This document shows, piece after piece, positions 1,135 through 27,654 of a stretch of 64,000 nucleotides of DNA; the stretch's first letter is position 1, and each line of letters starts with the position of its first letter. The position numbers and the translations under genes are program-made. The DNA comes from Oxalobacteraceae bacterium. GTDB lineage: Bacteria > Pseudomonadota > Gammaproteobacteria > Burkholderiales > Burkholderiaceae_D. The notes under the pieces were generated by a model. That model made no database searches. It worked only from the letters and a program-made list of their open reading frames with translations, and was not told the DNA's origin. The stretch is from positions 1 to 64,000 of the forward strand of contig JAJTGD010000002.1 of assembly GCA_021299035.1 (NCBI GenBank). Reading direction: 5' to 3'.

Positions 1135-2478
1135 ATGTCCAAACGAATAGCGGTTATCGGAGCCGGGCCCTCGGGCCTCGCCCAACTTAGAGCGTTTCAA
1201 TCGGCGAAGGCCAAGGGCGCCGACATCCCGGAAATCGTATGTTTTGAAAAGCAGGCCAATTGGGGCGGGCTTTGGAATTATTCGTGGCGGACAGGTCTGG
1301 ACGAACATGGTGAGCCCGTCCATAACTCTATGTATCGCTATCTTTGGTCCAATGGACCGAAAGAAGGGTTGGAATTCGCCGATTATTCATTCGAAGAACA
1401 CTTCGGTAAACAGATCGCGAGTTATCCGCCGCGCGCTGTGCTGTTCGATTACATTGAAGGGCGGGTAAAGAAAGCTGGAGTCCGAGATTGGATTCGATTC
1501 TCGACTTCTATTCGTTTTGTTCGATATGACGAGAAATCCGGGACGTTTACGGTAACAGCACATGATCTAGTAAACGACCGGATGTATGAAGAGATTTTTG
1601 ATCACGTGATTGTCGCTTCTGGTCATTTTTCGACCCCGAACGTGCCGGAGTTTCCGGGCTTTTCGAATTTTGGTGGCCGAATCCTTCACGCCCATGATTT
1701 CCGCGATGCGCTCGAGTTCAAGGGCATGGATATCTTGATCATTGGAACGTCTTACTCTGCCGAAGATATTGGTTCTCAGTGCTGGAAATATGGTGCGAAA
1801 TCGATTACGGTTTCTCATCGTACTGGCCCGATGGGATATGGGTGGCCAGATAATTGGCAGGAAGTTCCTTTGCTAGAGCGCGTTGAAGGAACGACAGCCT
1901 TTTTCAAAGATGGCACTTCGAAACACGTCGATGCCATCATTTTATGTACTGGCTATAAGCACCACTTCCCCTTCTTGCCTGACGATCTGCGCCTCAAGAC
2001 TGCGAACCGCCTTGCTGCAGCAGACCTCTATAAAGGTGTGACATGGGTTCACAATACCAAACTGTTCTATCTCGGAATGCAGGATCAATGGTTCACCTTC
2101 AACATGTTCGATGCACAAGCATGGTGGGTGCGAGACGTTATTCTCGGCCGAATCGCGGTTCCAACTGATAAGGCTACGCTCATCAAGGATGTTACGGATC
2201 GCGTTGCGCGGGAAGATGCTGGCAAGGATGCACATGACGCCATTCATTATCAGGGCGACTATGTGAAAGAGCTAATTGCAGAAACCGACTATCCGTCGTT
2301 CGACGTCGATGGCGCTTGCGAGGCCTTCTTCCAGTGGAAAGGCCACAAGGTCGAGGGTATTATGACTTTCCGCGACAATGCTTACAAATCAGTTATCACT
2401 GGCACGATGGCGCCGATCCATCATACGCCGTGGAAGCACGCCCTCGAGGATACGATGGAAAGCTACCTGAATAACTAG
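1135..2478 (+). CDS. tmm: Trimethylamine monooxygenase (Tmm)
   Basis: This is a flavin-containing monooxygenase that oxidises trimethylamine to trimethylamine N-oxide with NADPH and O2 in the cytoplasm. The 447 residues match the usual length of bacterial Tmm. The FAD motif GAGPSG is at residues 9-14, the FMO identifying motif [11 protein letters not shown] at 179-189, and the NADPH motif GTSYSAED starts at 204. This places Tyr207 where the Tyr that gates NADP+ lies in Roseovarius Tmm. Whole stretches ([40 protein letters not shown]) are those of marine and methylotroph Tmm as I remember them. The SD GAGGAG is 6-7 bases before ATG. It stands alone upstream of a 650-bp gap, followed by a permease and the dmm genes. 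A general FMO is the only alternative, and the context argues against it. Confidence 0.93.
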
Positions 2479-2489
2479 TTCCAGCTGCA

Positions 2490-3008: not shown

Positions 3009-3066
3009 GCTAGCGAAGCCGCTCATGTTTGCGCACCGCGATTGAGATGATTCGCTTTCTGCCAAG

Positions 3067-3080: not shown

Positions 3081-3126
3081 TTACGGATACAGCCCATAAT
3101 AACTAATAGCAAATAAAAAGAGAGGT

Positions 3127-4896
3127 ATGCCAATGTCAGCTGAAAATGTGCCTGGAGAGTTGCATCGTTCACTTGATTGGAAAGGCGCTTTCTGGGTCGC
3201 CGCAGGTGTTCCTCCGCTTGTTTTGTTTTCTATCGGTGGGATTGCTGGTGTCGCCGGTAAAGCAGCCTTCGTTGTCTGGATGGTCTCGATGACGATGGGC
3301 TTTTTACAGTCCTTCACATATGCCGAAATTGCAGGGATGTTCGGTAGTAAATCCGGCGGCGCTTCTGTGTATGGTGCGACGGCATGGTTACGCTACTCAA
3401 AACTCGTGGCGCCACTATCTGTCTGGTGCAACTGGTTCGCATGGAGCCCGGTACTATCCCTCGGCTGTGCGATTGCAGCCGGCTATATTCTAAACGCCCT
3501 GTATCCAATTCCTGCTGGGGATTCACAAGCGGTCATTGACTGGGTCGCTGCCAACGCTTCAACATTAACAACAGCGGATCCACGCGTGGTTGAATGGCTC
3601 GCCGCAAATTCTGGTGCCTCGGCGGAGGATGGGATTAGAGCGCTGCTTACGCTTGACGGTGTGGCCGCCTTGACCCCGGCTATTCGCACTTGGGAAGCAG
3701 TTTCTATTGCGATCCCAGGTCTAGGTCTGCTTCACTTCAATGCTACCTTCTTGATTGGCGCAGTTTTGATGCTGGTGATTTTTGCGATCCAACATCGCGG
3801 CATTGCCTCCACCGCATCGGCTCAGAAGGTACTTGGCATCGTTGTTCTGGTCCCCCTATTATTAGTTGGCCTTGTACCATTGCTAACTGGTTCGATTGAT
3901 GGCGCTAACGTGACTGGTATTGTCCCGCCAGCTATCGCCGGCGCTGTCGGTGAAGGCGTTTGGAACAATGGTGGTTGGACATTGTTTCTAGGCGCTCTCT
4001 ATATCGCCGCTTGGTCGACTTATGGCTTTGAAACCGCGGTTTGTTATACCCGCGAATTGAAAGATCCGAAGAGAGACACGTTTAGAGCGATATTCTTCTC
4101 AGGCTTACTGTGTGCGGTATTTTTCTTCCTTGTCCCTTACGCATTCCAAGGCGTGTTGGGTCATTCAGGCATGCTTGCGCCAGGAATCGCAGATGGCACC
4201 GGGATTGCAGAAGTACTCGGAGGCATGGTCGGCCACAGTAAAACGGTTATTCAAATCTTTGTCATTCTGATGATTCTGGCGCTGTTCTCGGCAATCATGA
4301 CTGCTATGGCCGGATCATCACGCACCCTGTACCAGGGCTCACGCGATGGCTGGCTACCAAAGTATCTTAGTCATGTGAACGAAAATGGGGCGCCGACTAA
4401 AGCGATGTGGACGGATTTCGCATTCAATCTGTTCTTGCTGGCTCTTGCGTCAGATGCAAGCGGATATTTCTATGTTCTAGCTATCTCAAACGTGGGTTAT
4501 ATCCTGTTTAACTTCCTGAACCTGAACGCCGGTTGGATCCATCGGATTGACTCGGGTCACATTGAGCGTCCTTGGAAGGCCCCTACATTTCTCATAGGCG
4601 TAAATACTGTGTTGGCTTTCGTTAACGCACTGCTACTGGGAGCCGGAGCCAAGGTTTGGGGCTACTCAAGCGCACTATGGGTTGGACTGATCTTTGCCGC
4701 TCTTATCATTCCAGTGTTTCTTTATCGGCACTACATTCAGGATGGTGGCAAGTTTCCTCCGGAGGCACTTGAGGATCTTGGATTATCGAATGGTGATCTA
4801 GGCGAGAAACGGGCTGGCATGCTGCCCTACCTGGCTCTGATATTAGGAGCAGTCATTGTGCTGTGGGCGAATTGGTACTTTGTACTGCCAGTCTGA
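3127..4896 (+). CDS. APC-superfamily permease, candidate methylated-amine or TMAO carrier
   Basis: This is a 589-residue integral membrane protein of the amino acid/polyamine/organocation superfamily with about 12 hydrophobic segments. The first helices carry the typical unwound-helix pattern (residues of about 25-50) and the GGASVYGATAW block. Hydrophilic residues at about 127-195 form an insertion between early helices that most APC permeases lack, which explains the extra length. The gene sits between tmm and dmmDABC and has its own FNR-type site and downstream terminator. I infer uptake of TMA, TMAO, DMA or a related amine from this context. The substrate cannot be read from the sequence. 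Start ATG 3127 has the SD GAGAGG; the Met two codons later is an alternative. Confidence 0.8.
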   Translation: MPMSAENVPGELHRSLDWKGAFWVAAGVPPLVLFSIGGIAGVAGKAAFVVWMVSMTMGFLQSFTYAEIAGMFGSKSGGASVYGATAWLRYSKLVAPLSVWCNWFAWSPVLSLGCAIAAGYILNALYPIPAGDSQAVIDWVAANASTLTTADPRVVEWLAANSGASAEDGIRALLTLDGVAALTPAIRTWEAVSIAIPGLGLLHFNATFLIGAVLMLVIFAIQHRGIASTASAQKVLGIVVLVPLLLVGLVPLLTGSIDGANVTGIVPPAIAGAVGEGVWNNGGWTLFLGALYIAAWSTYGFETAVCYTRELKDPKRDTFRAIFFSGLLCAVFFFLVPYAFQGVLGHSGMLAPGIADGTGIAEVLGGMVGHSKTVIQIFVILMILALFSAIMTAMAGSSRTLYQGSRDGWLPKYLSHVNENGAPTKAMWTDFAFNLFLLALASDASGYFYVLAISNVGYILFNFLNLNAGWIHRIDSGHIERPWKAPTFLIGVNTVLAFVNALLLGAGAKVWGYSSALWVGLIFAALIIPVFLYRHYIQDGGKFPPEALEDLGLSNGDLGEKRAGMLPYLALILGAVIVLWANWYFVLPV

Positions 4897-4923
4897 GCCG
4901 GCGAATTGTACAAATAAGGAAAG

Positions 4924-4946
4924 GCAGCCTTTGGCTGCTTTTTTTT
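4924..4946 (+). terminator. Rho-independent terminator after the permease
   Basis: GCAGCC-TTT-GGCTGC (4924-4938) followed by eight T residues (4939-4946) lies 28 bases after the permease stop. It separates the permease transcript from the dmm operon. Confidence 0.9.
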
Positions 4947-5068
4947 GAAAGTGTTTGAAGCGATTTATCCCTGCAATAAATTTTTTTGAAAATTTGAATG
5001 TGCAGGTTGGGCTTCATTCTTAATGATTTCCAGCAGTGCATAGTTTTTTATTCAACGGGAGAAGACAG

Positions 5069-6205
5069 ATGACAAATTCTTGGAGATTTTCCGCCCTCGC
5101 AGATCGTCACCGCGCCCTCGGTTCGAAACTTGAAGATTGGAGCGGCATGGGCACTGCCTGGAGTTACGATGCTGATCCAGACGCGGAGTACATGGCGATT
5201 CGAACCAAGGCTGGACTGATGGATGTTTCTGGCCTGAAGAAGGTTCACATTACAGGGCCCGCCGCCAGTCATCTGATCGATCGCGCTACCACACGTGATG
5301 TTGAAAAATTGATGCCAGGGAGGGCAGTGTATGCCTCCATGCTGAATGATGCGGGTAAATTTGTTGATGACTGTGTGATTTATCGCACCGGCCCCAATGC
5401 TTTCATGGTCGTGCATGGCTCCGGGCAAGGCCATGAGCAACTAACCATGGCTGCAACTGGCCGTGACGTATCGGTGCGCTTCGATGATAACCTTCATAAC
5501 CTTTCGCTACAGGGTCCGCTAGCCGTAGACTTCCTCGAAAAACACGTCGAACGCATCCGTTCTTTACCGTACTACAGCCATACGCATGCTTCGCTTTTCG
5601 GTAAACCAGCGATGATCTCCCGCACAGGTTATACCGGCGAGCGCGGCTACGAATTATTTGTGCGGGGTCAAGATGCTCCGATGGTTTGGGATCGTATTCT
5701 CGACGAAGGAAAGGCCATGGGAATTATTCCATGCCGCTTCACTACACTCGATATGTTGCGGACCGAGAGTTATCTCTTGTTCTACCCCTACGATAATTCA
5801 GAAATGTATCCTTTCGAGAATGAAAGTCCAGGCGACACGCTGTGGGAACTCGGCCTAGATTTCACTGTATCAGCCGGCAAAGTTGGTTTCCGGGGCGCAG
5901 AGGAGCATTATCGTCTGAAGGGTAAAGAGCGCTTTAAAATCTGGGGCCTAAAGTTCGAGGGCACCAATGTGCCAGGAAATGGCGCGCCGGTTTTCAAAAA
6001 TGGGGAAAAGGTTGGGCTTGTCACTCAAGCGATGTACTCGCCATTAAATAAACACAACATCGGGATTGCACGTCTTCCGGTGGATTGTGCCAACAATGGC
6101 ACGAAACTCGTCGTCAGATGCGGAACGCACGGAGAAATCCAAGCTACCACCTCCCCCATGCCTTTCTATGATGTCGATAAAAAGCGCCGCACTGCAAAGG
6201 ACTAA
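5069..6205 (+). CDS. dmmD: GcvT-family protein of the dimethylamine cluster (DmmD)
   Basis: This 378-residue protein has the aminomethyltransferase/GcvT fold that binds tetrahydrofolate. Family features include GLMDVSGLKKVHITGP near the start, RTGYTGERGYE in the middle and the glycine-cleavage C-terminal barrel. It heads a four-gene set in the order dmmD-dmmA-dmmB-dmmC, as in Ruegeria pomeroyi. There dmmABC suffices for dimethylamine monooxygenase activity and dmmD is also needed for growth on methylated amines. A likely role is capturing released formaldehyde on THF, which is inference. I chose ATG 5069 because GGGAGAAGAC lies just upstream; the in-frame Met at 5036 has no SD. A DMSP demethylase (DmdA) is a relative but fits the context less well. 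Confidence 0.82.
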   Translation: MTNSWRFSALADRHRALGSKLEDWSGMGTAWSYDADPDAEYMAIRTKAGLMDVSGLKKVHITGPAASHLIDRATTRDVEKLMPGRAVYASMLNDAGKFVDDCVIYRTGPNAFMVVHGSGQGHEQLTMAATGRDVSVRFDDNLHNLSLQGPLAVDFLEKHVERIRSLPYYSHTHASLFGKPAMISRTGYTGERGYELFVRGQDAPMVWDRILDEGKAMGIIPCRFTTLDMLRTESYLLFYPYDNSEMYPFENESPGDTLWELGLDFTVSAGKVGFRGAEEHYRLKGKERFKIWGLKFEGTNVPGNGAPVFKNGEKVGLVTQAMYSPLNKHNIGIARLPVDCANNGTKLVVRCGTHGEIQATTSPMPFYDVDKKRRTAKD

Positions 6206-6267
6206 GCCTCAATGTGTGCAGTCTGACGTCCATCGATCGTGTGCACTGTCAAAGGTAACTTAGGATC

Positions 6268-6888
6268 ATGACAAAAACACACTTTGAGCCTTCCATCCGC
6301 AGTCGCCCCGTGTATGGCGAATTGAAGCCTAAGCCCGGCTCGGGGTACTTGTTTGTTGCGGATGGTGAAGGCGCTAAAGCCATTCTTGAACTGTTTGATA
6401 AAGCCGGGGCAAGTGCAAAGAGCCTTTTGGCAAAATCACACATCATTTATATGCCAGGCCCGAATGGTGAGGATTTGGGCACGAACCTTGAGGCACTTGG
6501 AGCGGCGCAATATCATCGGAGTCCGAATTTCGCCTGTGCGCAACCACGTCTCAAGAAAGTGCTGTCAGATGCCCACATGGGTCTACAAATTTACCTTGCC
6601 GGCACTGAGGGTCTAATCGGTCAGGCTCAGCGCGATGTAATGGAGGCCGGGCTGCCACATGATGCGGTTCAGACCGAGCATCGCGGATCAACCGTGCGCA
6701 GAGTACAGTGCGTCCATTGCAAAGGCATCACGGAAGATGTCCGCACCGACCCCTTTAAATGTAGCCATTGTGGCCTTTTCCTTTTCGTCCGTGATCATTA
6801 CTCACGGAGAATAGCCGCATTCCAAGGTGTTAACATCGACGCCGAGGATCCGGGCCAAGTACCTGACGTGGTGGAGCGGTTTAAATGA
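6268..6888 (+). CDS. dmmA: Dimethylamine monooxygenase subunit DmmA
   Basis: This is a 206-residue cytoplasmic protein with no signal peptide or membrane segment. Residues of about 148-170 form a zinc ribbon (CVHC ... CSHC), and the N-terminal two thirds resemble a flavin or reductase-type alpha/beta fold without a motif I can name. It matches the DmmA family in size and place and overlaps dmmB by four bases (ATGA), so the two are translationally coupled. In the known system DmmA, DmmB and DmmC together convert dimethylamine to methylamine plus formaldehyde. The exact role of DmmA is not evident from the sequence. Confidence 0.8.
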   Translation: MTKTHFEPSIRSRPVYGELKPKPGSGYLFVADGEGAKAILELFDKAGASAKSLLAKSHIIYMPGPNGEDLGTNLEALGAAQYHRSPNFACAQPRLKKVLSDAHMGLQIYLAGTEGLIGQAQRDVMEAGLPHDAVQTEHRGSTVRRVQCVHCKGITEDVRTDPFKCSHCGLFLFVRDHYSRRIAAFQGVNIDAEDPGQVPDVVERFK

Positions 6889-7850
6889 GAGCCAAATCCC
6901 CGAGACTGTCTGTCACTGTCGCTGAGGTGGTGGAAGTCAACTCACTCATAAAACGGTTCCGTTTTGTTCGCACCGATGGTCAGGCAATGCCACCTTTTTC
7001 AGGCGGCGCTCATATCGTCGTCGACATGGATGATCACGGTACCCGGCGGATCAACCCCTACTCCTTGATGAGCAATCCAGCAGATTTATCCGGCTACTCG
7101 ATCTCCGTACGTCGAGACGATACTGGACGTGGTGGGTCGCTTTTCTTGCATCAACAGGTCCGGCAGGGTATGCAGATGCAAATCAGCTACCCGGTTAATT
7201 TATTCTCACTTGATCAGCGTGCAAAAAAGCATCTGATGATCGCAGGCGGTATTGGTATTACGCCCTTCATCTCACAGATGGCTCAGCTCATGTCATTAGG
7301 TGGGCGTTTTGAATTGCATTACTCAGTCCGTAATCGTGAGGTTGGCGCTTATGTAGATGAGCTGAAGTCTCTTTACGGCGAGCGCATCCATGTCTATTTT
7401 GATGATGACGGAGACAAGATTCAGCTTGATAGCTTACTGGCGAGCCAGTTTTTTGGGACGCATCTCTACGTTTGCGGCCCGAAAGGAATGATTTCATGGG
7501 TACGTTCAACTGCTGAAATGGCTGGGTGGCCTGCCGGCAGTATTCATTCGGAAGAGTTTCTCGCGCCACCTGTAGGTGAACCGTTTACCGTAGAACTTCT
7601 ACGTTCAAAAAAGACGATTACCGTTGGAGCTAGCCAATCGCTGCTTGAAGCAATGGAAGCAGCAGATGTCGAAGCACCCTACCTTTGCCGAGGTGGTGCA
7701 TGCGGGCAGTGCGAAACCGACGTAGTTCGTCTCGATGGTCAACTAGAACATAATGACCATTGGCTAACCGATGAGCAAAAGGCCTCCAACCAGCTGATCA
7801 TGCCTTGCGTCTCTCGTTTCAGAGGCAAAGACCTCGTTCTAGACCGATAG
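6885..7850 (+). CDS. dmmB: Dimethylamine monooxygenase reductase subunit DmmB
   Basis: This is a 321-residue phthalate-dioxygenase-reductase type protein. The N-terminal flavin barrel carries NPYSLMS (residues 62-68). The NAD(P)H domain has GGIGITPF and the VCGPKGM block. The C-terminal [2Fe-2S] ferredoxin has CRGGACGQC and a fourth Cys near the end (MPCVS). It passes electrons from NAD(P)H through flavin and the cluster to the haem-type oxygenase subunit next door. The start overlaps dmmA by four bases, and dmmC begins three bases after the stop, so this is a tight operon. VanB-type demethylase reductases share the fold. Confidence 0.88.
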   Translation: MRAKSPRLSVTVAEVVEVNSLIKRFRFVRTDGQAMPPFSGGAHIVVDMDDHGTRRINPYSLMSNPADLSGYSISVRRDDTGRGGSLFLHQQVRQGMQMQISYPVNLFSLDQRAKKHLMIAGGIGITPFISQMAQLMSLGGRFELHYSVRNREVGAYVDELKSLYGERIHVYFDDDGDKIQLDSLLASQFFGTHLYVCGPKGMISWVRSTAEMAGWPAGSIHSEEFLAPPVGEPFTVELLRSKKTITVGASQSLLEAMEAADVEAPYLCRGGACGQCETDVVRLDGQLEHNDHWLTDEQKASNQLIMPCVSRFRGKDLVLDR

Positions 7851-7853
7851 GAG

Positions 7854-8900
7854 ATGACTGTGGAAACGGCGTTCAATGAAGAAACCTTCCGTAACGATTT
7901 CAGCTTCAAAAACTCAGCGAAGGCTATAAGGCGCTTCCCTTTCCCGTTTTCTGAAGATGGCTACATGTACACAGTGAATATGGAACCACATGTACCTGGT
8001 CCCAAAGGAACTGTTTTCGAACCTATGTTCGATGTAGATGAGCATTACCTGTCTGAGATGCATGACCGCGCTTTGGTGCTAAATGAGGACCCTCTTCGCT
8101 GTCAGTCGTTACCCCATATGACGCTGGCTGGCTGGGACCTGCTCGAATTGATTATGGAATCAAAGGCGCGGGATTATCCGGAGTGGTTCGAACTTCACAA
8201 AGACGGACAGGCATGGCATTGGATCAACAGGCCCTTGGGTATCGATCAGAAATTCACATTTCTTGATGAAAGTACGCTCCCTTACGGTCCGATGGAATAT
8301 ATTACGCGCCAGTCGCAAGGGGATTTCACGCTGCAAGACCAGCGGGATGAGAATCTCTGGATGGACGCCGGTATGGTCACGACACAGGCCGATTGGAGCC
8401 TTGATTTTGATATCGGCATGGGATTCCATGAATGGCATGCGCCAGTACCAAGGGCACATGAGATGGGTGTCTTTGATCGAGCACTAAAATTTTTGCTCAA
8501 ATTACAGCATGGCGCGCCAGTTCGTCGATTCAACTGGACCCTCACAGTTGATCCACTGCTTGATACGAGCCCTGAAAATTATCCCAAGTGGGGGCCGATG
8601 CGCGCAGACATTCGGCCGGAAAATGTTGGCGAGCGTATGCATTTGCGCGTTGAGTTACAAACACTGTATCGTCTGCCGCGTTCAAATGGAATTGCGTTTG
8701 CAATCCGTTGCTATCTGATCCGTTTCGATGATCTGGTCACTATTCCAAAATGGGGGCGTCGCTTGCACCGAGTGTTGCGCGACATACCTGATGATTTGGC
8801 AACCTATAAAGGTTTTTTACGTAACCGAAACAGTCTCGTTCAATGGCTTTCACAGTATGACGATGGCCTGCCAACATCCGCCGGGTGGATGCCTGACTGA
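7854..8900 (+). CDS. dmmC: Dimethylamine monooxygenase catalytic subunit DmmC (HODM alpha-like, DUF3445)
   Basis: This 348-residue protein is of the haem-dependent oxidative N-demethylase (HODM) alpha family, formerly DUF3445. Diagnostic blocks are FPFSEDGYMYTV near residue 30, the HEWHAPVP segment at about residue 190, and LYRLPRSNGIAFAIRCYL in the last third, where this family has LxRLPxTxAxxFxIxTY. The family binds haem and oxidatively demethylates dimethylamine. The annotated ATG directly abuts AGGAG. The GTG two codons later (7860) has better SD spacing and may be the real start. It is the last gene of the dmm operon; about 550 bp of non-coding sequence follow. Confidence 0.85.
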   Translation: MTVETAFNEETFRNDFSFKNSAKAIRRFPFPFSEDGYMYTVNMEPHVPGPKGTVFEPMFDVDEHYLSEMHDRALVLNEDPLRCQSLPHMTLAGWDLLELIMESKARDYPEWFELHKDGQAWHWINRPLGIDQKFTFLDESTLPYGPMEYITRQSQGDFTLQDQRDENLWMDAGMVTTQADWSLDFDIGMGFHEWHAPVPRAHEMGVFDRALKFLLKLQHGAPVRRFNWTLTVDPLLDTSPENYPKWGPMRADIRPENVGERMHLRVELQTLYRLPRSNGIAFAIRCYLIRFDDLVTIPKWGRRLHRVLRDIPDDLATYKGFLRNRNSLVQWLSQYDDGLPTSAGWMPD

Positions 8901-9457
8901 ATGAACTAACATGCCATAAAAAGACGGCCGATGAACAACGCCCAAAAAATCTGATAGGCACTTGTAGTTCCTGCAGCCACCCCGGTTAGAACAATACAAT
9001 ATGGCCAGCGCCTAGGCCGAAAAGCTGGTCGCGACGCTCATATTTGATTTCACCTATGCCCGTATTGGGTAATTCGACCACCATCCGGTGAGCCAAGTCA
9101 CTAAGCGGTTGCCGTGGAATCGAATATTCGATACTCACCAGCCGAAGATATTTAACAGGTCATAGCGGTGTTTACCGGATGGTTACGGCCAAACGGCGTT
9201 TTTACTATCCGAGGGCGATACTTTCTTTGCGTCTGTTCTAACTGGCATCGAAGCGTTGCCGATACTGTCGGCGCCAAACCATAGCAAGGTAGTCTGCGTT
9301 CAGATCAGCCAAAATCACATAAGTGCCAAGTAAATACCAATAATTTGAAAAGCGCCGGACGACAATACATAAGACTTGCGGTAATAGAAAACCAAATATA
9401 TTCTCTGGATTAAGCATCTTTTCTGCTCATGTGATATTTCTTTGGAGTTGGTGCAGT
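8901..9457. other. Non-coding gap between dmmC and tdm
   Basis: I see no intact gene. A short plus-strand reading at about 9237-9281 (NWHR then GAKP before a stop) recalls the tail of IS-type integrase cores, but the match is too short to call. The final 100 bases before tdm are AT-rich and probably hold the tdm promoter. Confidence 0.45.
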
Positions 9458-11736
9458 ATGCTCGACAGCATTTACCCTGCCGTCCCTGTTGGACCACCGC
9501 CATCGAGCCGAATCGTGACCCCGGCCTCGATATCGATTCATTCGGGCGTCGAGCACTTTGAAGTAAAAGGTGCTGGAGCTATTTTGATTCCACTCACGAC
9601 CGGAGATAACATCACCCTTCGAAATGTCGAGGGTGGTCAATCGACAGAGCTAGTGGCCGTTGATTCAGAGGGACGAATCGACACAGGTATGATCGGCCTG
9701 CCCTCCAACAGCATGGCGGAGGGTTTAAAGGCCTTGCTGTCTGGTGAAGCGGCGACCGGTAGTGGTCTAGGCGGGCTGCGTCTTGGGCTTGAACGTCGCG
9801 GGATCAATCTTGCCAAGGCAAAATCGGTCACACTATTCGGCGAACATACGCTTGCGGGCACGGAGGAGACTTTCGTAGCCCAGCGCGACGGCGTACTGGT
9901 GGTTGCAGCCCCTGGCGGCCCAATGGCACCCGACCAGCAGGATACAGCAACGCCCATTCGGGTTACGGTCCAACGAGCAACGGTCAGGACTGTTGCTCAC
10001 TTTCCGCTCCCCGATCCCCTCGCAGAGCCCATTCTGGATCTGAGAGTCAATTCTGCTACGGCTGAATCCTATTTTGTGAAGGCCGGCGACTTTATTCAGA
10101 TCATTGACGTCGATGGTCGACAATGTACTGATTTTCAATGCTTCGCAGCGCGCAAACTTGATAGAGGACTCGAGCATCCGCTTGACGTGACGACATCACG
10201 CACCTTGATGGGCCATGCCTACTCGATGCCGGGTCTACATTCAAAATATTTTGATCAAGAGATGGTGCCGCTTGTTGAGGTCGTGCAGGATACAGTCGGA
10301 CGTCATGACGCTTTTGCTATGGCCTGCACCGCCAAATATTACGACGATATCGGCTATCCGGGTCACATCAATTGTTCTGAAAATTTCAATAAAGCCCTGG
10401 CCAAACATGGCATTGCATCTCGCCGAGGTTGGATGGCCGTAAACCTGTTCTTTAACACCGGTATTGACGCGCATGGTGTGCTCTACTCCGATGAACCATG
10501 GTCTCGTCCCGGCGACTATGTGCTGTTCCGCGCACTTACCGATATCGTCTGCGTGAACTCTGCGTGTCCTGACGATACCTCACCGGCTAATGGCTGGTAT
10601 TTGAGTGATATCCACGTTCGCGTCTATGAAGGTGCAGAAAAATTCCAACGTGCGATTGCCCGGCGGATCACGCCTAATTCGGAGCCGAAAATGACCAAGG
10701 ACACCGCATTCCACGAACGTACTTCAACGCTTACCCGTCATGTCGTCGAATATAAAGGGTATTGGTTACCTCACGTCTATTCCTCGAACGGCGCCATAGA
10801 AGAATACTGGGCATGTCGCGAAAAGGCTGTTGTAATGGATCTCTCGCCTTTACGGAAGTTTGAAGTTACCGGTCCCGATGCCGAGATCTTGATGAATCAT
10901 GTTTTGACCCGTGATGTCACCAAATTATCTATCGGGCAAGTAGTTTATTCGGCCATGTGTTACCCGCATGGTGGAATGATTGACGATGGAACACTCTTTC
11001 GCTTGGGGCGCGACAACTTCCGTTGGGTCGGTGGCGACGATTACGGTGGTATCTGGATCCGTGAACAAGCCGAAAAGGCCGGTATGAAAGTGATGGTCCG
11101 CTCATCCACCGACCAACTCCACAATCTAGCCGTGCAAGGTCCGAATAGTCGGGTGCGCCTGTCGTTGTATCTCGGACTGGCTATACGGGAGAATTAGGCT
11201 TTGAAATCTTTTGCCATCCGAAGGATAGCCTAGCGGTTTATGATGCCGTTTGGTCGAACGGTCAAGATCTAGGTCTCAGGCCAATGGGTCTAGCCGCACT
11301 TGATATGGTTCGCATAGAAGCAGGTCTTATTTTCGCAGGCTACGATTTCAGCGACGAGACAGATCCCTTTGAGGCTGGCATTGGTTTCACAGTGCCGCTG
11401 AAATCGAAAATGGCCGACTTCATAGGACGAGACGCCCTCATCCGTCGCAAAGAGCACCCCTCCCGTAAACTGGTCGGCTTGCACATCGAAGCCAATGTGG
11501 ACGTGGGACATGGCGATTGTGTGTATGCAGATCGGGCAAAGATTGGCGTTGTCACCTCTTCTGTGCGCTCCCCAATTCTGGGTAAGAACATCGCACTTGC
11601 GCGCGTTGACCTTGCCCATTCAGAAATCGACTCCCATCTAGAGATCGGAAAACTCGACGGACAACAAAAGCGCCTGCCTGCCAAGGTCGTTCCGTTGTCG
11701 CATTACGATCCTAAAAAAACGCGTCCCCAGTCTTAA
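9458..11736 (+). pseudogene. tdm: Trimethylamine N-oxide demethylase (Tdm), broken by internal deletion and frameshift
   Basis: Tdm converts TMAO to dimethylamine and formaldehyde. It is a fusion of an N-terminal zinc domain (DUF1989) and a C-terminal THF-binding GcvT domain. Both are here in two frames: 9458-11197 (579 residues), then 11149-11736. Cys290, Cys306 and Cys370 keep the 16- and 64-residue spacing that I recall for the zinc cysteines of Methylocella Tdm. The GcvT part runs normally to NLAVQGPNSR, then jumps to GAPVVVSRTGYTGE in another frame. Family members have about 35-40 residues between these blocks, so about 110 bp is missing and the frame is lost. A 579-residue product would retain the demethylase domain but lose most of the THF domain. 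The start is ATG 9458 after TTGGAG. Confidence 0.87.
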
Positions 11737-11873
11737 GCAGTTCATGGTTAGGACACACAGGTTTGTACTCATCGCCTGCAAAATATCCGTGGCTTGCGCA
11801 ATAGTCATGCGGCAATCCTTCCTCAGATTAGCGGAGGTCTGAAGTAGAATTTTCTCAACCGAAAGAGTTCTAC

Positions 11874-13511: not shown

Positions 13512-13616
13512 ATCCATCGTCCCCATGTCCCCAACAATGGGGACAGACATCTGCCCGCAACCCCAACAAAATTCTCCATGGGTCACTTTGGCTCGACAAA
13601 AACTCAGGAGAACATC

Positions 13617-15140: not shown

Positions 15141-15144
15141 ATAG

Positions 15145-15882: not shown

Positions 15883-15981
15883 GAAAATTAGTCTAATGCG
15901 CCATGGCGACGATTGCAAAAGTTTATATATTAATAACAAGCATTCAAAGAACGAACCCATCACTTCGGGCACAATCCGGTT

Positions 15982-17274: not shown

Positions 17275-17373
17275 TCGCTATTTTCCCAAAGCCTCGGCAT
17301 AGAAAATTCTGGATCCCACGACTTACTCGCTCCAAAGCCGATTGAAACAAACAACGCCGCCGCATCAAGATCG

Positions 17374-17775: not shown

Positions 17776-17897
17776 GAAATTCGAAATGAATTAGCGTAGG
17801 GTGGTGCTGAATAAGCCAACGCCGGACAGAGGGACGCCTGCTCATTCAACGCGATCGCTGAACCCGATAACTGAATCCGATCACTGAGCCTAATCAC

Positions 17898-19589: not shown

Positions 19590-20831
19590 ATGCCCTTGCG
19601 ACTGCTTAGATTTGGCCTCAGCCGCTCGCACCCCGAGCCGAGGATGTTCTCCACGCCCACCGACCTTCAGTCGGAGTACGACGTGGTCATTATCGGTGCC
19701 GGCGGGCACGGACTCGCCGCTGCCTACTATCTGGCGCGCGACCACGGCATCAAGCGTGTCGCAGTGCTGGAAAAAGGCTATATCGGTGGCGGTAACACCG
19801 GGCGCAACACCACCATCATCCGCTCTAACTACCTGACGCCCGAGGGCGTGAAGTTTTACGACGCCTCGGTACAACTGTGGCAGGACCTGGCGGAAGACTT
19901 CGATCTGAACCTGTTTTATTCGACTCGCGGCCACTTCACCCTGGCGCACACGGACTCAGCGGTACGCACCATGCGCTGGCGCGCCGAGGTAAATAAACAC
20001 TACGGCGTGGAATCCGAGTTGGTCGGGCCGGATTTCATCAAGCGTGCCTGCCCGTCGATCGACATCACCTGCGGTGGCCATGCGCCGATACTCGGTGCGC
20101 TCTATCACGCGCCCGGCGCGATCGCGCGGCACGATGCAGTGGCCTGGGGCTATGGCCGCGGCGCCTGCAATCGCGGTGTTGAAATTCACCAGCAGACCGC
20201 GGTAACTGGCATTGACGTGGTGGGTGGCAAAGTGGTCGGCGTCCAAACAACGCGCGGCCCCATCAAGACCAGCAAGGTGCTATGTGCGGTGGCCGGTTTT
20301 ACGCCGCGTGTGACTGATATGGTCGGCATCCGCACCCCGCTCTACATTCACCCATTGCAAGCCATGGTGAGCGAGCCGATGAAGCCGTGGCTGGATCAGA
20401 TTTTTGTCTCGGGCAGCTTGCATATTTATATCAGCCAGAGCGCGCGCGGCGAATTGGTGATGGGCGCTTCACTCGACCCCTATGAGGTGCATTCAACGCG
20501 CTCGACGCTCGACTTCACCGAAACCTTGTCGGCACATATGCTCGACATGTTCCCCTTCCTGTCGCATGTGAAAGTGAACCGTCAATGGTCAGGCATGGCC
20601 GACATGACCCCTGACTTCGCGCCACTGATGGGCAAAACCGAGGTTGAAGGTTTTTATCTGGATGCTGGCTGGGGCACTTGGGGCTTCAAAGCTACCCCAG
20701 TGTGCGGCAAGACCATGGCATGGACGGTTGCCAACGATAAGCCGCATGAATTGATCACCGGATTTTCTTTGGATCGCTTCCGCAATTATTCGCTGACCGG
20801 CGAAAAAGGCGCAGCGAGCGTGGGGCACTGA
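19590..20831 (+). CDS. mgdA: N-methylglutamate dehydrogenase subunit A (sarcosine oxidase beta-like)
   Basis: This 413-residue FAD protein of the DAO/SoxB family has VVIIGAGGHGLAAAYYLAR at residues of about 30-50, GGGNTGRNTTIIRSNY with the flavin-attachment region, and GWGTWGFKATPVCGK near the C-terminus. With MgdB, C and D it oxidises N-methylglutamate to glutamate and passes the methyl carbon to tetrahydrofolate. The gmaS and mgsABC genes downstream separate this from ordinary sarcosine oxidase. Start ATG 19590 has a poor SD, but the leader LRLLRFGLSR resembles the SoxB N-terminus; ATG 19644 is the alternative. Confidence 0.9.
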   Translation: MPLRLLRFGLSRSHPEPRMFSTPTDLQSEYDVVIIGAGGHGLAAAYYLARDHGIKRVAVLEKGYIGGGNTGRNTTIIRSNYLTPEGVKFYDASVQLWQDLAEDFDLNLFYSTRGHFTLAHTDSAVRTMRWRAEVNKHYGVESELVGPDFIKRACPSIDITCGGHAPILGALYHAPGAIARHDAVAWGYGRGACNRGVEIHQQTAVTGIDVVGGKVVGVQTTRGPIKTSKVLCAVAGFTPRVTDMVGIRTPLYIHPLQAMVSEPMKPWLDQIFVSGSLHIYISQSARGELVMGASLDPYEVHSTRSTLDFTETLSAHMLDMFPFLSHVKVNRQWSGMADMTPDFAPLMGKTEVEGFYLDAGWGTWGFKATPVCGKTMAWTVANDKPHELITGFSLDRFRNYSLTGEKGAASVGH

Positions 20832-20832
20832 T

Positions 20833-21090
20833 ATGAAACTAATGCCCTGCCCTGTCAACGGTCCGCGCGCGATCGCCGAGTTTATTTATTGGGGCGAGGT
20901 GCGCGTCAGCCCCGACCAAAATACCTGCACTGATGATGAATGGGCTGATTACGTGTTCAATCGCAATGGAGCGCCCGGCATAAAGCGCGAGTGGTGGTGC
21001 CACACCCCATCGAATACCTGGTTTATCGCCGAGCGGGATACTGCCGCCGACCGCGTGTTGCGAACCTGGTTACCGGGAGCTGAGCCATGA
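20833..21090 (+). CDS. mgdB: N-methylglutamate dehydrogenase subunit B (sarcosine oxidase delta-like)
   Basis: This 85-residue SoxD-family subunit has CPVNGPR at residues 6-12, then GEVRVSPD, DEWADYVFNRNG and EWWCHTPSNTWFIAERDT. Classical SoxD binds zinc through CPxC and a C-terminal HxxxC. Here the second Cys of the first pair is Asn, and the position of the last Cys is also Asn. The zinc site is therefore probably missing, which I believe is common in this subfamily. It starts one base after mgdA and overlaps mgdC by four bases (ATGA). Confidence 0.88.
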   Translation: MKLMPCPVNGPRAIAEFIYWGEVRVSPDQNTCTDDEWADYVFNRNGAPGIKREWWCHTPSNTWFIAERDTAADRVLRTWLPGAEP

Positions 21091-23984
21091 GCCGCTTGCC
21101 CGTCATGCCAGATGAGTGGATCAACCGCTCGCAAACTGTAAAGATTCGCTTCGAGGGCCGTGAGTATGTCGCCTTCGAGGGTGATGCTATCAGCAGCGCG
21201 CTATGGGCCGCGGGTACCCGCACACTTGGTCGCAGTTTCAAGTACCACCGGCCGCGCGGCATTTTGTCGATGGCGAATCATGATGTCAACGTCATGGTGC
21301 AGGACGGACAACGCCTGAATGTACGCGGCGATGTCATACCGGTGCGCGCAGGTATGGATCTATCTGCAGTAAATACGTGGGGTGGCGTACAGAGTGATCG
21401 CGTACGCTTCCTGGATAAGCTTTCAGCGTTTTTACCGGTTGGCTTCTACTACAAGGCGTTTCACAACAAGCGCTTGTTCCCGCTGTGGGAGCGCATGTTC
21501 CGCAATATCACCGGCCTCGGTCGCCTGGATCTGAATACGCCGCATATCAGAACTGCGAAGCGCTATGACTTCTGCGATGTGCTCATCATTGGTGCCGGAC
21601 CCTCTGGTCTGAGTGCGGCATTAGCCGCTGCTGACGCCGGCGCTAGCGTAGTGCTGGTGGATGAAAATGCACACGCTGGTGGATCGGGCATGTACCAACT
21701 TGGCGCAGACAACACACGGCGCGATCAGACCCATGCATTGCTACAAAGGGCGCGCCAGCATGCGCAGATTCGAATTCTCGAGTCGACCACCGCATCGGGC
21801 TGGTATGCCGATCAGTGGATACCACTAACCGATGCCGACAAGATGGTGAAGCTGCGCGCCAAAGCCACTATCGTCGCCGGCGGTGCCTACGAGCAGCCGA
21901 CCGTATTCCGTAACAATGACTTGCCGGGTGTAATGCTTGGCTCGGCCATGCAGCGCCTGATTTACCGCTACGCGGTTCAGCCAGCGCGACGCGTGGTGAT
22001 TACTGCAGCGAATGAAGATGGCTACCGGCTGGCGCTGGATCTGTTGGCAGCTGGTGTACAAGTGCTGGCAATTGCCGACTTGCGTGACAACGTACCTGCC
22101 TCGGCTACGGTCAATGCAGTACGCGAGCGCGGCGTTGAGTGTCTGCTGGGTAGCGGCGTGTATGAAGCACACGCGGATAGTCACGGTGAACTTGGCGCCG
22201 TCACGATATGCCGTTTACGCAACGGGGTTGCGGACACCGCGACTGCGCTTCGTTTTGATTGCGATGGCGTAGCGATGAGTACCGGCTGGGCACCTGCCGC
22301 CAACTTGCTGTACCAGAGCGGCGCCAAGATGCGCTTCGATGAACGTACACAGCAATTCGTACCCGCCAACCTGCCCGAAGGCGTGTATGCCTGCGGACGT
22401 GTGAATGGTGTTTATGGTTTTGACGCGCGGATCGCCGATGGCGCACGCGCAGGTACTTCAGCCGCCTCATTCGCACTGGGTGTACCGCTGACCATACCGG
22501 CAGTACCAAATGACGATAGTGTGCCAAGTTATCCGTGGCCTGTGGTCGAGCATGCACAAGCTAAAAACTTCGTCGACTTTGATGAAGATTTGCAGCTGAA
22601 AGATTTTGCGAATGCGGTGCAGGAAGGTTACGACAACATCGAGCTGCTGAAGCGCTACTCGACCGTTGGCATGGGCCCGAGTCAGGGCAAGCATTCGAAC
22701 ATGACTGCGCTGCGCATTCTGGCGCGCCTGCTTGGCAAGTCACCTGAGCAAGTGGGCACCACCACCGCGCGACCGTTTTTCCATCCAGTGCCGATGTCGC
22801 ATCTGGCTGGTCGCGGTTTCCATCCACAAAGACATAGCCCATTGCATGGCCGTCACGCAGGCTGGGGTGCGGTGTTCATGCCGGCTGGCGTGTGGGAACG
22901 ACCGGAGTATTACGCGCAACAGGGTAAATCACGCACTGACTGCATTCATGACGAAGTGCGTCGTGTGCGCAGCAAGGTCGCGCTGATTGATGTGGGTACG
23001 CTCGGCAAAATCGAGGTGCGTGGGCCGCAAGCTGCCGAGTTCTTGAACCGTGTATACACCGCGCGCATTGATCTGCTGAAGGTCGGTGGTACTCGCTACG
23101 CGATCATGTGCGATGAATCGGGCGTCGTAACTGACGAAGGCGTGATCGCCCATATCGAACAAAATGTTTACTACTTCACCACCACCACCTCGGGTGCTGC
23201 CAACGTATACCGCGAAATGTCGCGTCTGAATGCGGAGTGGGGTCTGCAATGCGGCATCATCAATCTCACCGGATCTTATGCTTCAGTCAACTTGGCCGGC
23301 CCGGATTCACGTGCGGTGCTTGGTCCGCTGTGTGATGTTGATCTGTCGTCAGCGGCGTTCCCTTACCTCGCGGTACGCCAAGGAATCATCGCTGGTATCC
23401 CTGCACGCATCATGCGAGTCGGTTTCGTCGGTGAGTGGGGCTATGAAATTCATGTACCCGCCGAGTACGGCGCAACGCTGTGGGATGTACTGATGGAAGC
23501 CGGTAAGCCCTATGGCATTGGCCCGTTTGGGGTTGAGGCACAGCGTTTGCTGCGACTGGAAAAGGGTCACCTGATCGTCAGTCAGGATACCGATGGTCTG
23601 ACACATCCGTTTGAAGTCTCGATGGAGTGGGCGGTGAAGATGGATAAGCCCTTCTTCATCGGTCAGCGCTCACTGAAAATCGTGCGCGAGCTGCCGCTCA
23701 AACGAAAGCTGGCGGGCTTTCAACTACCCGCAACGCATACCGGCGCAGTGCCGAGCGAGTGTCATCTGATTATTCAAAACGGCGAGATCGTCGGTCGTGT
23801 CACCAGCTGCTACTGGAGTCCGAACCTCGGCCATCACATTGGTCTGGCGTTCTTGCCACCGCAGATGTGCGATGTCGGCACACGCTTCCAGATTCGCCTC
23901 AGCGACGGCAGTATGGTGAGCGCCGAGGTCTGCGCAACACCGTTCTTTGATCCCGAGAACCTGCGCCAGAAGGAGACCGCATGA
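21087..23984 (+). CDS. mgdC: N-methylglutamate dehydrogenase subunit C (sarcosine oxidase alpha-like)
   Basis: This is the 965-residue large subunit, the usual length for SoxA. Residues of about 10-60 hold the ferredoxin-like N-terminal domain (FEGREYVAFEGDAISSALWA). Residues of about 165-480 hold the pyridine-nucleotide/flavin domain ([19 protein letters not shown]). Residues of about 590-960 hold a GcvT domain that takes the methyl-derived carbon onto THF (FVGEWGYEIHVPAEYG). It is coupled by four-base overlaps to both mgdB and mgdD. The role in N-methylglutamate oxidation is assigned from the operon. Confidence 0.9.
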   Translation: MSRLPVMPDEWINRSQTVKIRFEGREYVAFEGDAISSALWAAGTRTLGRSFKYHRPRGILSMANHDVNVMVQDGQRLNVRGDVIPVRAGMDLSAVNTWGGVQSDRVRFLDKLSAFLPVGFYYKAFHNKRLFPLWERMFRNITGLGRLDLNTPHIRTAKRYDFCDVLIIGAGPSGLSAALAAADAGASVVLVDENAHAGGSGMYQLGADNTRRDQTHALLQRARQHAQIRILESTTASGWYADQWIPLTDADKMVKLRAKATIVAGGAYEQPTVFRNNDLPGVMLGSAMQRLIYRYAVQPARRVVITAANEDGYRLALDLLAAGVQVLAIADLRDNVPASATVNAVRERGVECLLGSGVYEAHADSHGELGAVTICRLRNGVADTATALRFDCDGVAMSTGWAPAANLLYQSGAKMRFDERTQQFVPANLPEGVYACGRVNGVYGFDARIADGARAGTSAASFALGVPLTIPAVPNDDSVPSYPWPVVEHAQAKNFVDFDEDLQLKDFANAVQEGYDNIELLKRYSTVGMGPSQGKHSNMTALRILARLLGKSPEQVGTTTARPFFHPVPMSHLAGRGFHPQRHSPLHGRHAGWGAVFMPAGVWERPEYYAQQGKSRTDCIHDEVRRVRSKVALIDVGTLGKIEVRGPQAAEFLNRVYTARIDLLKVGGTRYAIMCDESGVVTDEGVIAHIEQNVYYFTTTTSGAANVYREMSRLNAEWGLQCGIINLTGSYASVNLAGPDSRAVLGPLCDVDLSSAAFPYLAVRQGIIAGIPARIMRVGFVGEWGYEIHVPAEYGATLWDVLMEAGKPYGIGPFGVEAQRLLRLEKGHLIVSQDTDGLTHPFEVSMEWAVKMDKPFFIGQRSLKIVRELPLKRKLAGFQLPATHTGAVPSECHLIIQNGEIVGRVTSCYWSPNLGHHIGLAFLPPQMCDVGTRFQIRLSDGSMVSAEVCATPFFDPENLRQKETA

Positions 23985-24640
23985 GCACCCCGGCCCGCGT
24001 CAGCCCCCTCGCCGATGTGCAGTCTGCACACGCCGCGCGCTGGACCGAGATAGAACATATGCGTGTAGTCGCCGCGTTCTCCAATGAACAAGCGAATGCA
24101 CTGAATGCGGTCGCACTGGGCGACCTCAGCCATCGCCCACGTACTGGCGTGAAGGGCCCGGGTGCTGCTGCCGCACTGAATGCAGCGGGCATCAGCACAC
24201 CGACTCAGCCAAACCGCTGGTGTCGTAGCGAAGGGGCATTCATCGCGCGCCTCGGCCTGACCGAGTACCTGATCGAAGCAGATCAGTCGAATACTGCAGT
24301 GTCGCGCGTATTGGCACTGCCAAATGCGCCCGATGTCTATCCGGTACCGCACTACGATGCTGCGCTGATCGTCATGGGTCCGAAGGCGATCGATCTGTTC
24401 CGCCAAACCTGCTCGGTCGATATGGCGACACTCGATCCGAATGATGGTGCGCTCGTACTCACCTCGGTGGTGGGCGTTGGCGCCACCGTCGCTGCGCTGC
24501 AGACACCGGCAGGTATTGCCTACCAAGTTTGGCTGGACGGCACCTACGCTAGCTATATGTGGGAAACGCTGTGCGAAATCGCGCATGACATGGGAGGTGG
24601 TCCGATCGGATTTGATGCGTTGTCACGAGTCGGGCTCTGA
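23981..24640 (+). CDS. mgdD: N-methylglutamate dehydrogenase subunit D (sarcosine oxidase gamma-like)
   Basis: This 219-residue protein is of the SoxG family, itself a shortened GcvT-like fold: [17 protein letters not shown] at about residues 46-62, [20 protein letters not shown], and [19 protein letters not shown] near the end. It completes the four-subunit MgdABCD enzyme. It begins within the mgdC stop (ATGA) and ends 52 bases before gmaS. Confidence 0.88.
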
Positions 24641-24692
24641 GCAACCAGCAATAAAGAGGTCCACGTACAAGGGCCACACGAAAGGGGAGATG

Positions 24693-26021
24693 ATGAAACC
24701 AACAGAGGCGAAGAAATATCTAAAAGAACACGGCGTCAAATATATATTGGCGCAGTTCGTCGATGTGCATGGCGCTGCTAAGGCGAAGTCGGTGCCGGTG
24801 GAGCACTATGACACCGTGATCACTGATGGCGCTGGCTTCGCCGGTTTCGCGTTAGCGGGTATGGGCATGAAACCCAACGCGGATGGCGACTTCATGGCGG
24901 TGGGTGACCCGAGTACGCTGAGTGTGGTGCCGTGGCAGCCGGGCTATGCACGCATGGCCTCTGATGGTCATGTGCATGGCGAACCCTGGCCTCATTGCTC
25001 GCGCGTTGTACTGAAGTCGCAGCTGGAGCGCATGGAAGCCAAGGGATGGATTTTTTACACCGGGATGGAACCCGAGTTTTCGCTTCTGAGAAAAGTCGAA
25101 GGTCGCCTGGTACCGAGTGAAGCCTCCGACACACTAGCCAAGCCCTGCTACGACTACAAAGGCTTGTCGCGCTCACGCGCGTTTCTGGAGCGATTGGCAG
25201 AGTCGCTGCGCGCAGTGGGTATCGATGTTTATCAGATCGATCATGAAGATGCCAATGGCCAGTTCGAGATTAACTACACCTACACCGATGCACTAACCTC
25301 TTGCGATCATTACACCTTCTTCAAAATGGGCGCGGCTGAGATCGCGGCCGAGATGGGACTGATTTGCTCGTTCATGCCTAAGCCCTTCAGTAATCGTCCG
25401 GGTAATGGCTTGCACATGCACATGAGCATCGGCAACGGCAAGAAAAACCTGTTTGAAGATAAATCCGACAAGCGTGGGCTCGATCTCTCTACCCTCGCCT
25501 ATCACTTTGCGGGTGGTTTGCTGGCGCATGCCTCGGCACTGGCAGCGGTGTGCTGCCCGACGGTAAACAGCTACAAGCGTTTGGTCGTGGGTCGCTCACT
25601 GACGGGTGCTACTTGGGCACCGGCCTATATCTGCTACGGCAACAACAACCGCTCCGGCATGATCCGTGGGCCGGGTGGTCGTCTTGAATTGCGTCTGCCG
25701 GATGGTTCTGCCAACCCGTATCTCGCCACCGCTGCAGTGATCGCGGCGGGCCTGGATGGTATCGAACGCAAACTGGATCCGGGTGAGCCGGTGGTCGACA
25801 GCCTGTACGAGATGAGCCCGGCACAACTACGTAAGCAAGGCATACGACTGCTGCCACAGAACTTGAACGAAGCGCTCGATGCTCTCGAGAAGGACGAAGT
25901 TATCAAGGGCGCGCTCGGACCGCTGGCAAATGACTTCCTTGAGCTAAAACGCATGGAATGGGTGGAGTACATGCGTCATGTGTCGGACTGGGAAGTGGAT
26001 CAGTACCTCCAGTTCTTCTGA
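24693..26021 (+). CDS. gmaS: gamma-Glutamylmethylamide synthetase
   Basis: This 442-residue glutamine-synthetase-family ligase makes gamma-glutamylmethylamide from methylamine, glutamate and ATP, the entry step of the N-methylglutamate pathway. Family motifs are [12 protein letters not shown] near residue 120 (metal-binding Glu), the [10 protein letters not shown] block, NGLHMHMS (catalytic His) and the NNRSGMIR block near residue 320. The length fits GmaS (about 440-445). The mgd genes before it and mgsABC after it decide between GmaS and GlnA. The frame is open upstream, but AAAGGGGAG points to ATG 24690 or 24693; I favour 24693 for SD spacing. Confidence 0.92.
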
Positions 26022-26043
26022 ACTGGGCCAAGGAGAAAACATC

Positions 26044-26952
26044 ATGTGTGGAATCGTGGGACTGCTGGTGAAGAAACCAGCACTCAGAGAACAACTCGGC
26101 AAATTGATGGTGCCTATGCTGATCGGCATGACCGATCGCGGCCCGGACTCTGCCGGCTTGGCCGTATTTGCCGATCCGCTGAAAGGCACGGCGCGCAAGC
26201 TCAGTTTGTATTCGGGTATGACCGAGGCCGGTGCCGACTTCGATTGGCATGGCTTGACGCACGGAATGAAAGAGCATCTCGGTGTGCCATCGAAAATCGA
26301 TATCAAGCATAACCATGCTGTGCTGACTTTCGAGGTATCGCCCGACATCGTCAAGAAATGGCTGCACGAGCATTACCCGCTGCTGCATATTCTCTCGACG
26401 GGTCAGACCATTGATCTGTACAAGGATATCGGCACGCCGTCGATGGTGGCGAGCCGCTACGACTTCGCTTCACTCACCGGTTCGCATCTAGTCGGCCATA
26501 CCCGTATGGCGACCGAGTCGGCAGTGACACCAGATCGTGCGCACCCCTTCACTGCGGGGGAAGACTTCTGCTTGGTACACAACGGCTCACTGTCGAACCC
26601 GTATGGATTGCGTCGCAAGCTAGAGCCGCACGGCATCCACTTCGATACTGACAACGACACCGAAGCGGCTTGTCGTTTTCTGGAGTGGCGTTTGCGGGAA
26701 GGCGATGATCTCGAGGCTGCACTACACGCCGGCTTCGAAGAGCTGGATGGTTTCTTTACCTTCTTGATGGGTACCCCTGACAAGCTGGCACTGATTCGCG
26801 ATCCGTTCGCTTGCAAACCAGCAGTCGTCGCTGAGACCGATGACTATGTCGCTATCGCTAGTGAGTTCCGCTCGTTGGCGCATCTGCCTGATGTAAAAAA
26901 CGCCAAAGTATTCGAGCCAGCGCCGGAGGAGATGTACGTATGGAACGCGTAA
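26044..26952 (+). CDS. mgsA: N-methylglutamate synthase subunit A (class II glutamine amidotransferase)
   Basis: This 302-residue Ntn-type amidotransferase starts MCGIVGLL, so Cys2 becomes the nucleophile. Further catalytic-site blocks are VGHTRMAT, VHNGSLSN and DNDTEAA. In N-methylglutamate synthase this subunit attacks gamma-glutamylmethylamide and passes methylamine to the synthase subunits, as GltB does with glutamine. The SD AAGGAG is 6-7 bases before ATG. It overlaps mgsB by 13 bases. Confidence 0.9.
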   Translation: MCGIVGLLVKKPALREQLGKLMVPMLIGMTDRGPDSAGLAVFADPLKGTARKLSLYSGMTEAGADFDWHGLTHGMKEHLGVPSKIDIKHNHAVLTFEVSPDIVKKWLHEHYPLLHILSTGQTIDLYKDIGTPSMVASRYDFASLTGSHLVGHTRMATESAVTPDRAHPFTAGEDFCLVHNGSLSNPYGLRRKLEPHGIHFDTDNDTEAACRFLEWRLREGDDLEAALHAGFEELDGFFTFLMGTPDKLALIRDPFACKPAVVAETDDYVAIASEFRSLAHLPDVKNAKVFEPAPEEMYVWNA

Positions 26953-27629
26953 GCTTCGACCTCGCCAGTACACCACTGCGCGAGGTGAATCAATTTCTGC
27001 ATAAGCAATTGCAAGCCGATGACCAACGTCATTTCGAGGTGCTAAACCCGGATGGCGCGCACAGCATCGCAGTCGGGCTTGATCAACCCGTCACGGTTGA
27101 GATTCATGGCCATGCGGGCTACTACGCTGCCGGCATGAACAAGAAAGCGACTGTCATCGTGCACGGCAGTGCCGGTACCGGCGTCGCTGAAAACATGATG
27201 AGCGGTCGTGTGCATGTGAAAGGTTTTGCCTCGAATGGTGCCGGTGCTACTTCGCATGGCGGTCTGCTGGTGATTGATGGCGACGCAGGTCTGCGCTGCG
27301 GTATCTCGCTCAAAGGCGGCGACATCGTAGTCGGTGGTTCTGTCGGCAGCTTCTCTGGCTTCATGGCGCAAGCTGGTCGCATGGTGATTTGCGGTAACGC
27401 CGGTGATGCACTCGGTGACTCGCTGTACGAAGCGGTGATCTATCTACGCGGCGAAGCCAAATCGCTCGGTGCCGATGCACGCTTTGAACCAATGACCGAC
27501 GAGGACCGCGCGGTGGTAGCTGAGTTATTGCGCGAAGCGGGCTTGCAACATGACCCGGCCTCGTTCAAGCGAGTTGCCTCTGCGCGCAGCCTCTATCACT
27601 GGAACGCCGACGCTAATCAGGAATATTAA
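26940..27629 (+). CDS. mgsB: N-methylglutamate synthase subunit B (glutamate synthase GXGXG domain)
   Basis: This 229-residue right-handed beta-helix protein corresponds to glutamate synthase domain 3. The repeated glycine pattern (HGSAGTGVAENM, GDAGLRCGISLKGG, GGSVGSFSGFMAQ, GNAGDALGDS) spans residues of about 60-170. The domain is structural and organises the tunnel between the amidotransferase and synthase parts. The start lies within mgsA in another frame, which suggests translational coupling. Confidence 0.88.
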   Translation: MERVSFDLASTPLREVNQFLHKQLQADDQRHFEVLNPDGAHSIAVGLDQPVTVEIHGHAGYYAAGMNKKATVIVHGSAGTGVAENMMSGRVHVKGFASNGAGATSHGGLLVIDGDAGLRCGISLKGGDIVVGGSVGSFSGFMAQAGRMVICGNAGDALGDSLYEAVIYLRGEAKSLGADARFEPMTDEDRAVVAELLREAGLQHDPASFKRVASARSLYHWNADANQEY

Positions 27630-27654
27630 GCCGCACGCCGGCAGGAAGAACATC

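Follow-up and report, generated by a model that had tools for sequence, protein, structure and literature searches.

The TMAO demethylase gene (tdm) of this Oxalobacteraceae bacterium is missing exactly 100 bp and changes frame inside its GcvT part, within a stretch of 64,000 nucleotides that was analysed as a whole (the window). On balance, we read this as a recent loss-of-function deletion, perhaps strain-limited, lying in a methylamine island of probable horizontal origin. Most likely the gene has undergone an ordinary loss mutation and does not represent a new kind of enzyme. The deletion is rather likely to be real, at least in part of the population, and may be confined to some of its cells. 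Because the break is so young, strain variation or assembly error is as important here as the physiological meaning.

The deletion and the reading frame of tdm

The gene is described below as two parts that meet at the deletion point:

11151..11152, + strand: deletion point, where L025, L026 and L027 have 100 bp that the window lacks, with 2-bp microhomology (blast)
9458..11197, + strand: 5′ part of tdm, a truncated frame of 579 amino acids (Pfam/NCBIfam search, translation, alignment)
11152..11736, + strand: 3′ part of tdm, 194 sense codons and a stop in another frame (Pfam, translation, selection counts)

Blast comparison with the sister species (L025, the record of C4_MAG_00025, presumably identical with contig G016:C54) and with L026 and L027, two MAG records labelled Rhizobiales and Hyphomicrobiales, showed that exactly 100 bp of all three relatives are skipped at 11151|11152. 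The flanks of the junction have CG in common, which makes its placement ambiguous by 2 bp, and the loss amounts to 33 codons plus one base of the GcvT part. A sequence-only reading of this DNA had put a loss of about 110 bp at 11148-11160; the location holds, and the size has to be corrected to 100 bp. When a 301-bp query from the sister was searched against the window's own assembly, bases 1-95 and 196-301 matched, both on the window contig, while bases 96-195 matched nowhere, so that the missing 100 bp were not found elsewhere in that assembly. A second complete tdm elsewhere in the genome, which the same reading had named as the finding that would overturn it, did not turn up in a search of the own assembly, which is 94.9% complete, a copy in the missing part being possible. 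The frame is disrupted here while the orthologue of a close relative is intact, which is one of the marks of a pseudogene or loss-of-function allele.

Translation from the ATG at 9458 ends at a TAG at 11195-11197, which bears out the frame change in the GcvT part and the 579-residue product proposed earlier. This product comprises an N-terminal region, the DUF1989 zinc domain (residues 197-364, Pfam), the first part of the GcvT portion and a final stretch of about 14 out-of-frame residues. The GCV_T match covers residues 419-568, corresponding to profile positions 2-152 of 255, and GCV_T_C is absent (both by Pfam); a complete C-terminal GcvT domain with its barrel is thus lacking. The 3′ part encodes the remaining GCV_T and the GCV_T_C barrel (Pfam), in a frame that runs uninterrupted from 11152 to a TAA at 11734-11736. 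Against the NCBIfam model of TMAO demethylase (NF053776), the 579-residue product scores 793 bits, under the cut-off of 1100 for membership of the family, and the 3′ piece alone 336 bits. A separate 150-aa GcvT tail produced by a translation restart at 11284 was also considered; it is possible on paper and found no support.

The zinc part had been described as intact on account of Cys290, Cys306 and Cys370, and these positions stand. Together with H303, D225 and D373, they are identical in 20 of 20 aligned Tdm sequences (the window's counted), and all six are found as well in structure 9q59, which matches the window protein with 805 bits over residues 6-568. The structures 9q59, 9q5l and 9q5a bear the name TMAO demethylase. 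In our reading, which uses an offset of 27, the six residues would correspond to C263, C279, C343, H276, D198 and D346 of the Methylocella enzyme; this correspondence leaves A344, proposed as an additional ligand in the available text of PMC12560246, unmatched. An AlphaFold model of the 579-residue protein, built from a 20-row alignment, reached a mean pLDDT of 48.5, with residues 180-465, including the zinc domain, below 50, a quality too low for the model to argue for or against activity.

The methylamine island and its origin

The gene lies among other genes for the use of methylated amines:

1135..2478, + strand: tmm, trimethylamine monooxygenase, open frame (NF058570, 827 bits, cut-off 675)
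3127..4896, + strand: TMAO permease, open frame (NF053774, 820 bits, cut-off 690)
5036..6205, + strand: dmmD-like GcvT protein, open frame (families below cut-off; assigned by its position beside the DmmA-family gene and by PMC5520151, as far as its available text goes)
6268..6888, + strand: DmmA-family dimethylamine monooxygenase subunit, open frame (NF041259, 113 bits, cut-off 60)
6885..7850, + strand: ferredoxin/flavin reductase, putative second subunit of dimethylamine monooxygenase (gene order; reductase families below cut-off)
7854..8900, + strand: putative third subunit of dimethylamine monooxygenase (gene order only; no family match)
19590..29010, + strand: N-methylglutamate pathway genes, open frames (no indel relative to the sister), which we take individually to be mgd, gmaS and mgs

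The dmmDABC-like operon thus spans 5036-8900. The view that the pathway genes other than tdm are intact is upheld by open frames of ordinary length throughout and by the lack of any indel relative to the sister from 18296 to 33269. The large mgdC/soxA-like gene occurs in three copies in the own assembly, one in the window (21087-23984) and one each on G000:C45 (L003) and G000:C29 (L004); the window copy shares 88-89% identity with the latter two, which are about 94% identical between themselves. Three copies at these identities therefore indicate either paralogous clusters or contigs of foreign origin in the bin.

The nearest tdm relatives from outside the genus are labelled alphaproteobacterial (L026, 87%; L027, 83%), and because of this a horizontal acquisition of the methylamine island appears probable. 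The host is placed among the betaproteobacteria on the strength of the Oxalobacteraceae label of L025 and of its sharing a genus with G016. A plasmid search for the island, run in 'near' mode only, gave one match (71%), on a Paracoccus plasmid and confined to part of tdm. The island (1-11736) is also closer to the sister than are the stretches compared on its right-hand side (82.8-95%), and the change comes just after the tdm stop. Identity to the sister is 97.4% over 1 to 11151, and then 91.4% over 18296-20794, 94.95% over 20676-33269, 82.8% over 33337-40330, 92.1% over 49453-61833 and 91.7% over 61911-64000. Values of dS lie between 0.014 and 0.123 for the genes from tmm through tdm, and reach 0.293 in the gene after tdm, 0.253 in the comparable part of the gene at 19590 and 0.653 in an XRE-like gene. 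Since identity is higher and dS lower in the island than beyond it, the island was probably exchanged between the two species, or received from a common donor, after their split.

Two further regions stand out in the comparison with the sister. The stretch 13515-18295, which holds an amidase gene, a LuxR-type gene and a broken MFS gene, is nearly absent from L025, where it has one 58-bp match and the alignment resumes at 18296. Around 61811-61951 lies a dispersed repeat of about 70-80 bp, similar sequences of which are listed on at least seven contigs of the sister genome G016 in addition to the syntenic contig, and at a single place in G014.

Selection and the age of the break

Between the window and the sister, the codons before the break differ by 17 silent and 5 replacement changes, and the 194 codons after it by 15 silent and 3 replacement changes. 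L026 served as outgroup to assign them to branches, and only assignable changes were counted (6 ambiguous changes before the break and 3 after it were left out). The window branch carries 3 silent changes and 1 replacement before the break and 7 silent changes and 1 replacement after it; on the sister branch the counts are 8 and 4 before, and 5 and 2 after. Under neutrality, one replacement or fewer among the eight changes in the 3′ piece has a probability of p = 0.00036 by a simple binomial based on site counts and without transition bias. The silent-to-replacement ratio does not differ between the parts (Fisher p 0.71, from few changes). The relaxed selection after the break that marks a pseudogene is thus not seen, the window branch standing at 7 silent to 1 replacement, and the 3′ piece still looks to be under purifying selection. 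Because these codons still look selected, the break is either very recent or an assembly error; in other words, nearly all of the divergence on the window branch predates the break, or the break is not natural.

A real allele or an assembly error

The indels of the window were surveyed wherever it could be aligned to the sister, that is, with L025 (about 16 kb; 1-13514, 13788-13845 and 18296-20794) and with L132 and L133 (about 34 kb; 20676-33269, 33337-40330, 49453-61833 and 61911-64000), which leaves 13515-18295, except for 58 bp, and 40331-49452 outside the comparison. Across these aligned stretches, no other frame-breaking indel was found well within a gene: the other indels are intergenic or, in genes, multiples of three, barring three cases near gene ends. 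One is a 4-bp difference near the end of the gene at 7854-8900, where the window is gapless against L026. Another comprises three missing stretches, of 10, 1 and 42 bp, within the final 30 bases of the ORF at 38423-39256. The last, a 12-bp plus a 5-bp difference, lies close to the predicted start of the ORF at 60851, a start that was probably placed too far upstream. Within the stretch not compared with the sister, the MFS transporter gene at 15982-17274 has an in-frame TAA at 16477-16479 where its genus relatives L124, L125 and L126 have glutamine; this stop by substitution makes it a second disrupted gene less than 5.5 kb from tdm, which speaks against a real tdm allele.

A chimera of two strains joined at the deletion was first suggested by blast identities of 97.4% to the left and 93.1% to the right of 11151. 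It was ruled out, since finer windows placed the drop in identity near 11740, after the tdm stop and not at the junction, and the divergence of the 3′ part is ordinary for the island: 68 of the 212 585-bp windows of 1-11151 have at least as many mismatches.

It is possible, though we lean away from it, that the assembler made an error or picked a minority variant out of the metagenome and that tdm is normally whole in this organism. The genome is a draft of 80 contigs, the round figure of the loss, exactly 100 bp, is slightly suspicious, and the selected-gene evolution of the 3′ piece fits an artefact as well as it fits a young mutation. Moreover, among the best 80 of at least 523 confirmed tdm candidates, the gene is full length in 76 loci, where the frame stays open for 740 codons or more counted from the match start; the rest are three loci cut by contig ends and one (L033) with a frameshift. 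Against an error speak the aligned stretches, free of other frame-breaking indels well within genes, and the divergence, which is steady across the junction and carries no mark of a strain chimera. An assembler would also be unlikely to invent a junction with 2-bp homology unless reads carried it.

Predicted consequences of the deletion

Under the deletion reading, a betaproteobacterial lineage would have gained the island (tmm, TMAO permease, dmmDABC and tdm), probably by horizontal transfer, and a very recent deletion at a 2-bp microhomology would then have cost the GcvT part of tdm 33 codons and one base and put the gene out of frame. The 579-residue product would be inactive, and because of this TMA would be oxidised to TMAO and the pathway would halt there, dimethylamine and methylamine use still being possible. 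The Ruegeria pomeroyi tdm deletion described in the available text of PMC13390433 does not grow on TMA or TMAO and grows on the downstream methylamines, and its transcription of mgdA with TMAO is sharply down. By analogy, the window strain should halt at TMAO and keep growth on dimethylamine and methylamine, and the downstream genes would perhaps be uninduced on TMA.

The earlier reading had left two options, a remnant that might still yield dimethylamine and formaldehyde, or a lost step. The first is now disfavoured: in PMC12560246, as far as its available text goes, neither the N-terminal nor the GcvT part of Methylocella Tdm was active when purified by itself, and formaldehyde from the isolated N-terminal part stayed at the level of the no-enzyme control. 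The lost step is the better option, the authors of that study holding that the full-length protein is needed. It is accordingly very improbable that the 579-residue remnant remains able to demethylate TMAO with release of free formaldehyde, which DmmD or other C1 enzymes would handle, and we give hardly any credence to the narrower form of this idea, a working, slimmed TMAO demethylase whose formaldehyde is handled in trans by the adjacent DmmD. If this were true, a complete GcvT domain would be dispensable for catalysis in the cell. The remnant does retain the Cys triad, H303, D225 and D373, and full-length Tdm keeps its activity when its more labile unit is heat-denatured (PMC12560246). Against activity stand the inactive isolated N-terminal part, a product that stops inside GCV_T at about profile position 152 of 255, and a silent-to-replacement ratio that does not differ between the two parts (Fisher p 0.71), though it comes from too few changes to say much. 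The capture of formaldehyde by the THF domain, which had been taken as established, is less so than stated; the same source describes THF use by Tdm as probably vestigial and unnecessary for demethylation, with THF slightly lowering formaldehyde release.

A selected loss, in which Tmm makes TMAO as an end product (for instance, an osmolyte) or is retained because it serves a different substrate, also seems far-fetched. It would fit the open, conserved frames of tmm and the permease, both above their family cut-offs, and an own assembly in which MTTB is absent and the bisC/TMAO-reductase family has three matches, all below cut-off (best 202 bits against 1017.55). The break is, however, too young to show a pattern, and only two of the 21 genus genomes (own genome counted) have Tmm above cut-off, the own genome and G016, in the latter of which tdm is intact. 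Tdm is above the NF053776 cut-off in one of the 21, G016. A wider search took in 56 genomes, the own among them, and three of these matched the tdm query over most of its length: the own genome, G016 (99%) and G032 (57%). Further matches in the list reach at most 89 bits and cover single domains or parts of them.

If the deletion is real, it is a natural loss of tdm in a betaproteobacterial lineage that keeps tmm and the dimethylamine and methylamine steps, and in which TMA would end up as TMAO and not be consumed. Mostly it is a caution, as annotation would record this draft genome as unable to demethylate TMAO although the gene is present in the sister and the break seen here is either very young or unreal.

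Comparison with known TMAO demethylases

The closest comparison is with the sister, which is collinear with the window from 1 to 13514, except for small indels and the 100 bp. Its Tdm has 99% protein identity to the window's over residues 1-565 and is full length (1202.9 bits against the NF053776 cut-off of 1100, in G016), whereas the window copy is truncated. The tdm of Rhodobacter sp. CACIA14H1 (L033) is, like that of the window, frame-broken in the GcvT part; its break lies around 11740-11840 of L033, and its pieces abut or overlap in different frames with no comparable loss of coding sequence, unlike those of the window. With the TMAO demethylase of Methylocella silvestris (NF053776) the window product shares the DUF1989 zinc domain, the three cysteines and the start of GcvT, but its GCV_T is incomplete and the GCV_T_C barrel is missing. 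The inactive N-terminal construct of the Methylocella enzyme comprises residues 1-376, according to the available text of PMC12560246, and the remnant in the window retains an additional stretch of GcvT beyond it.
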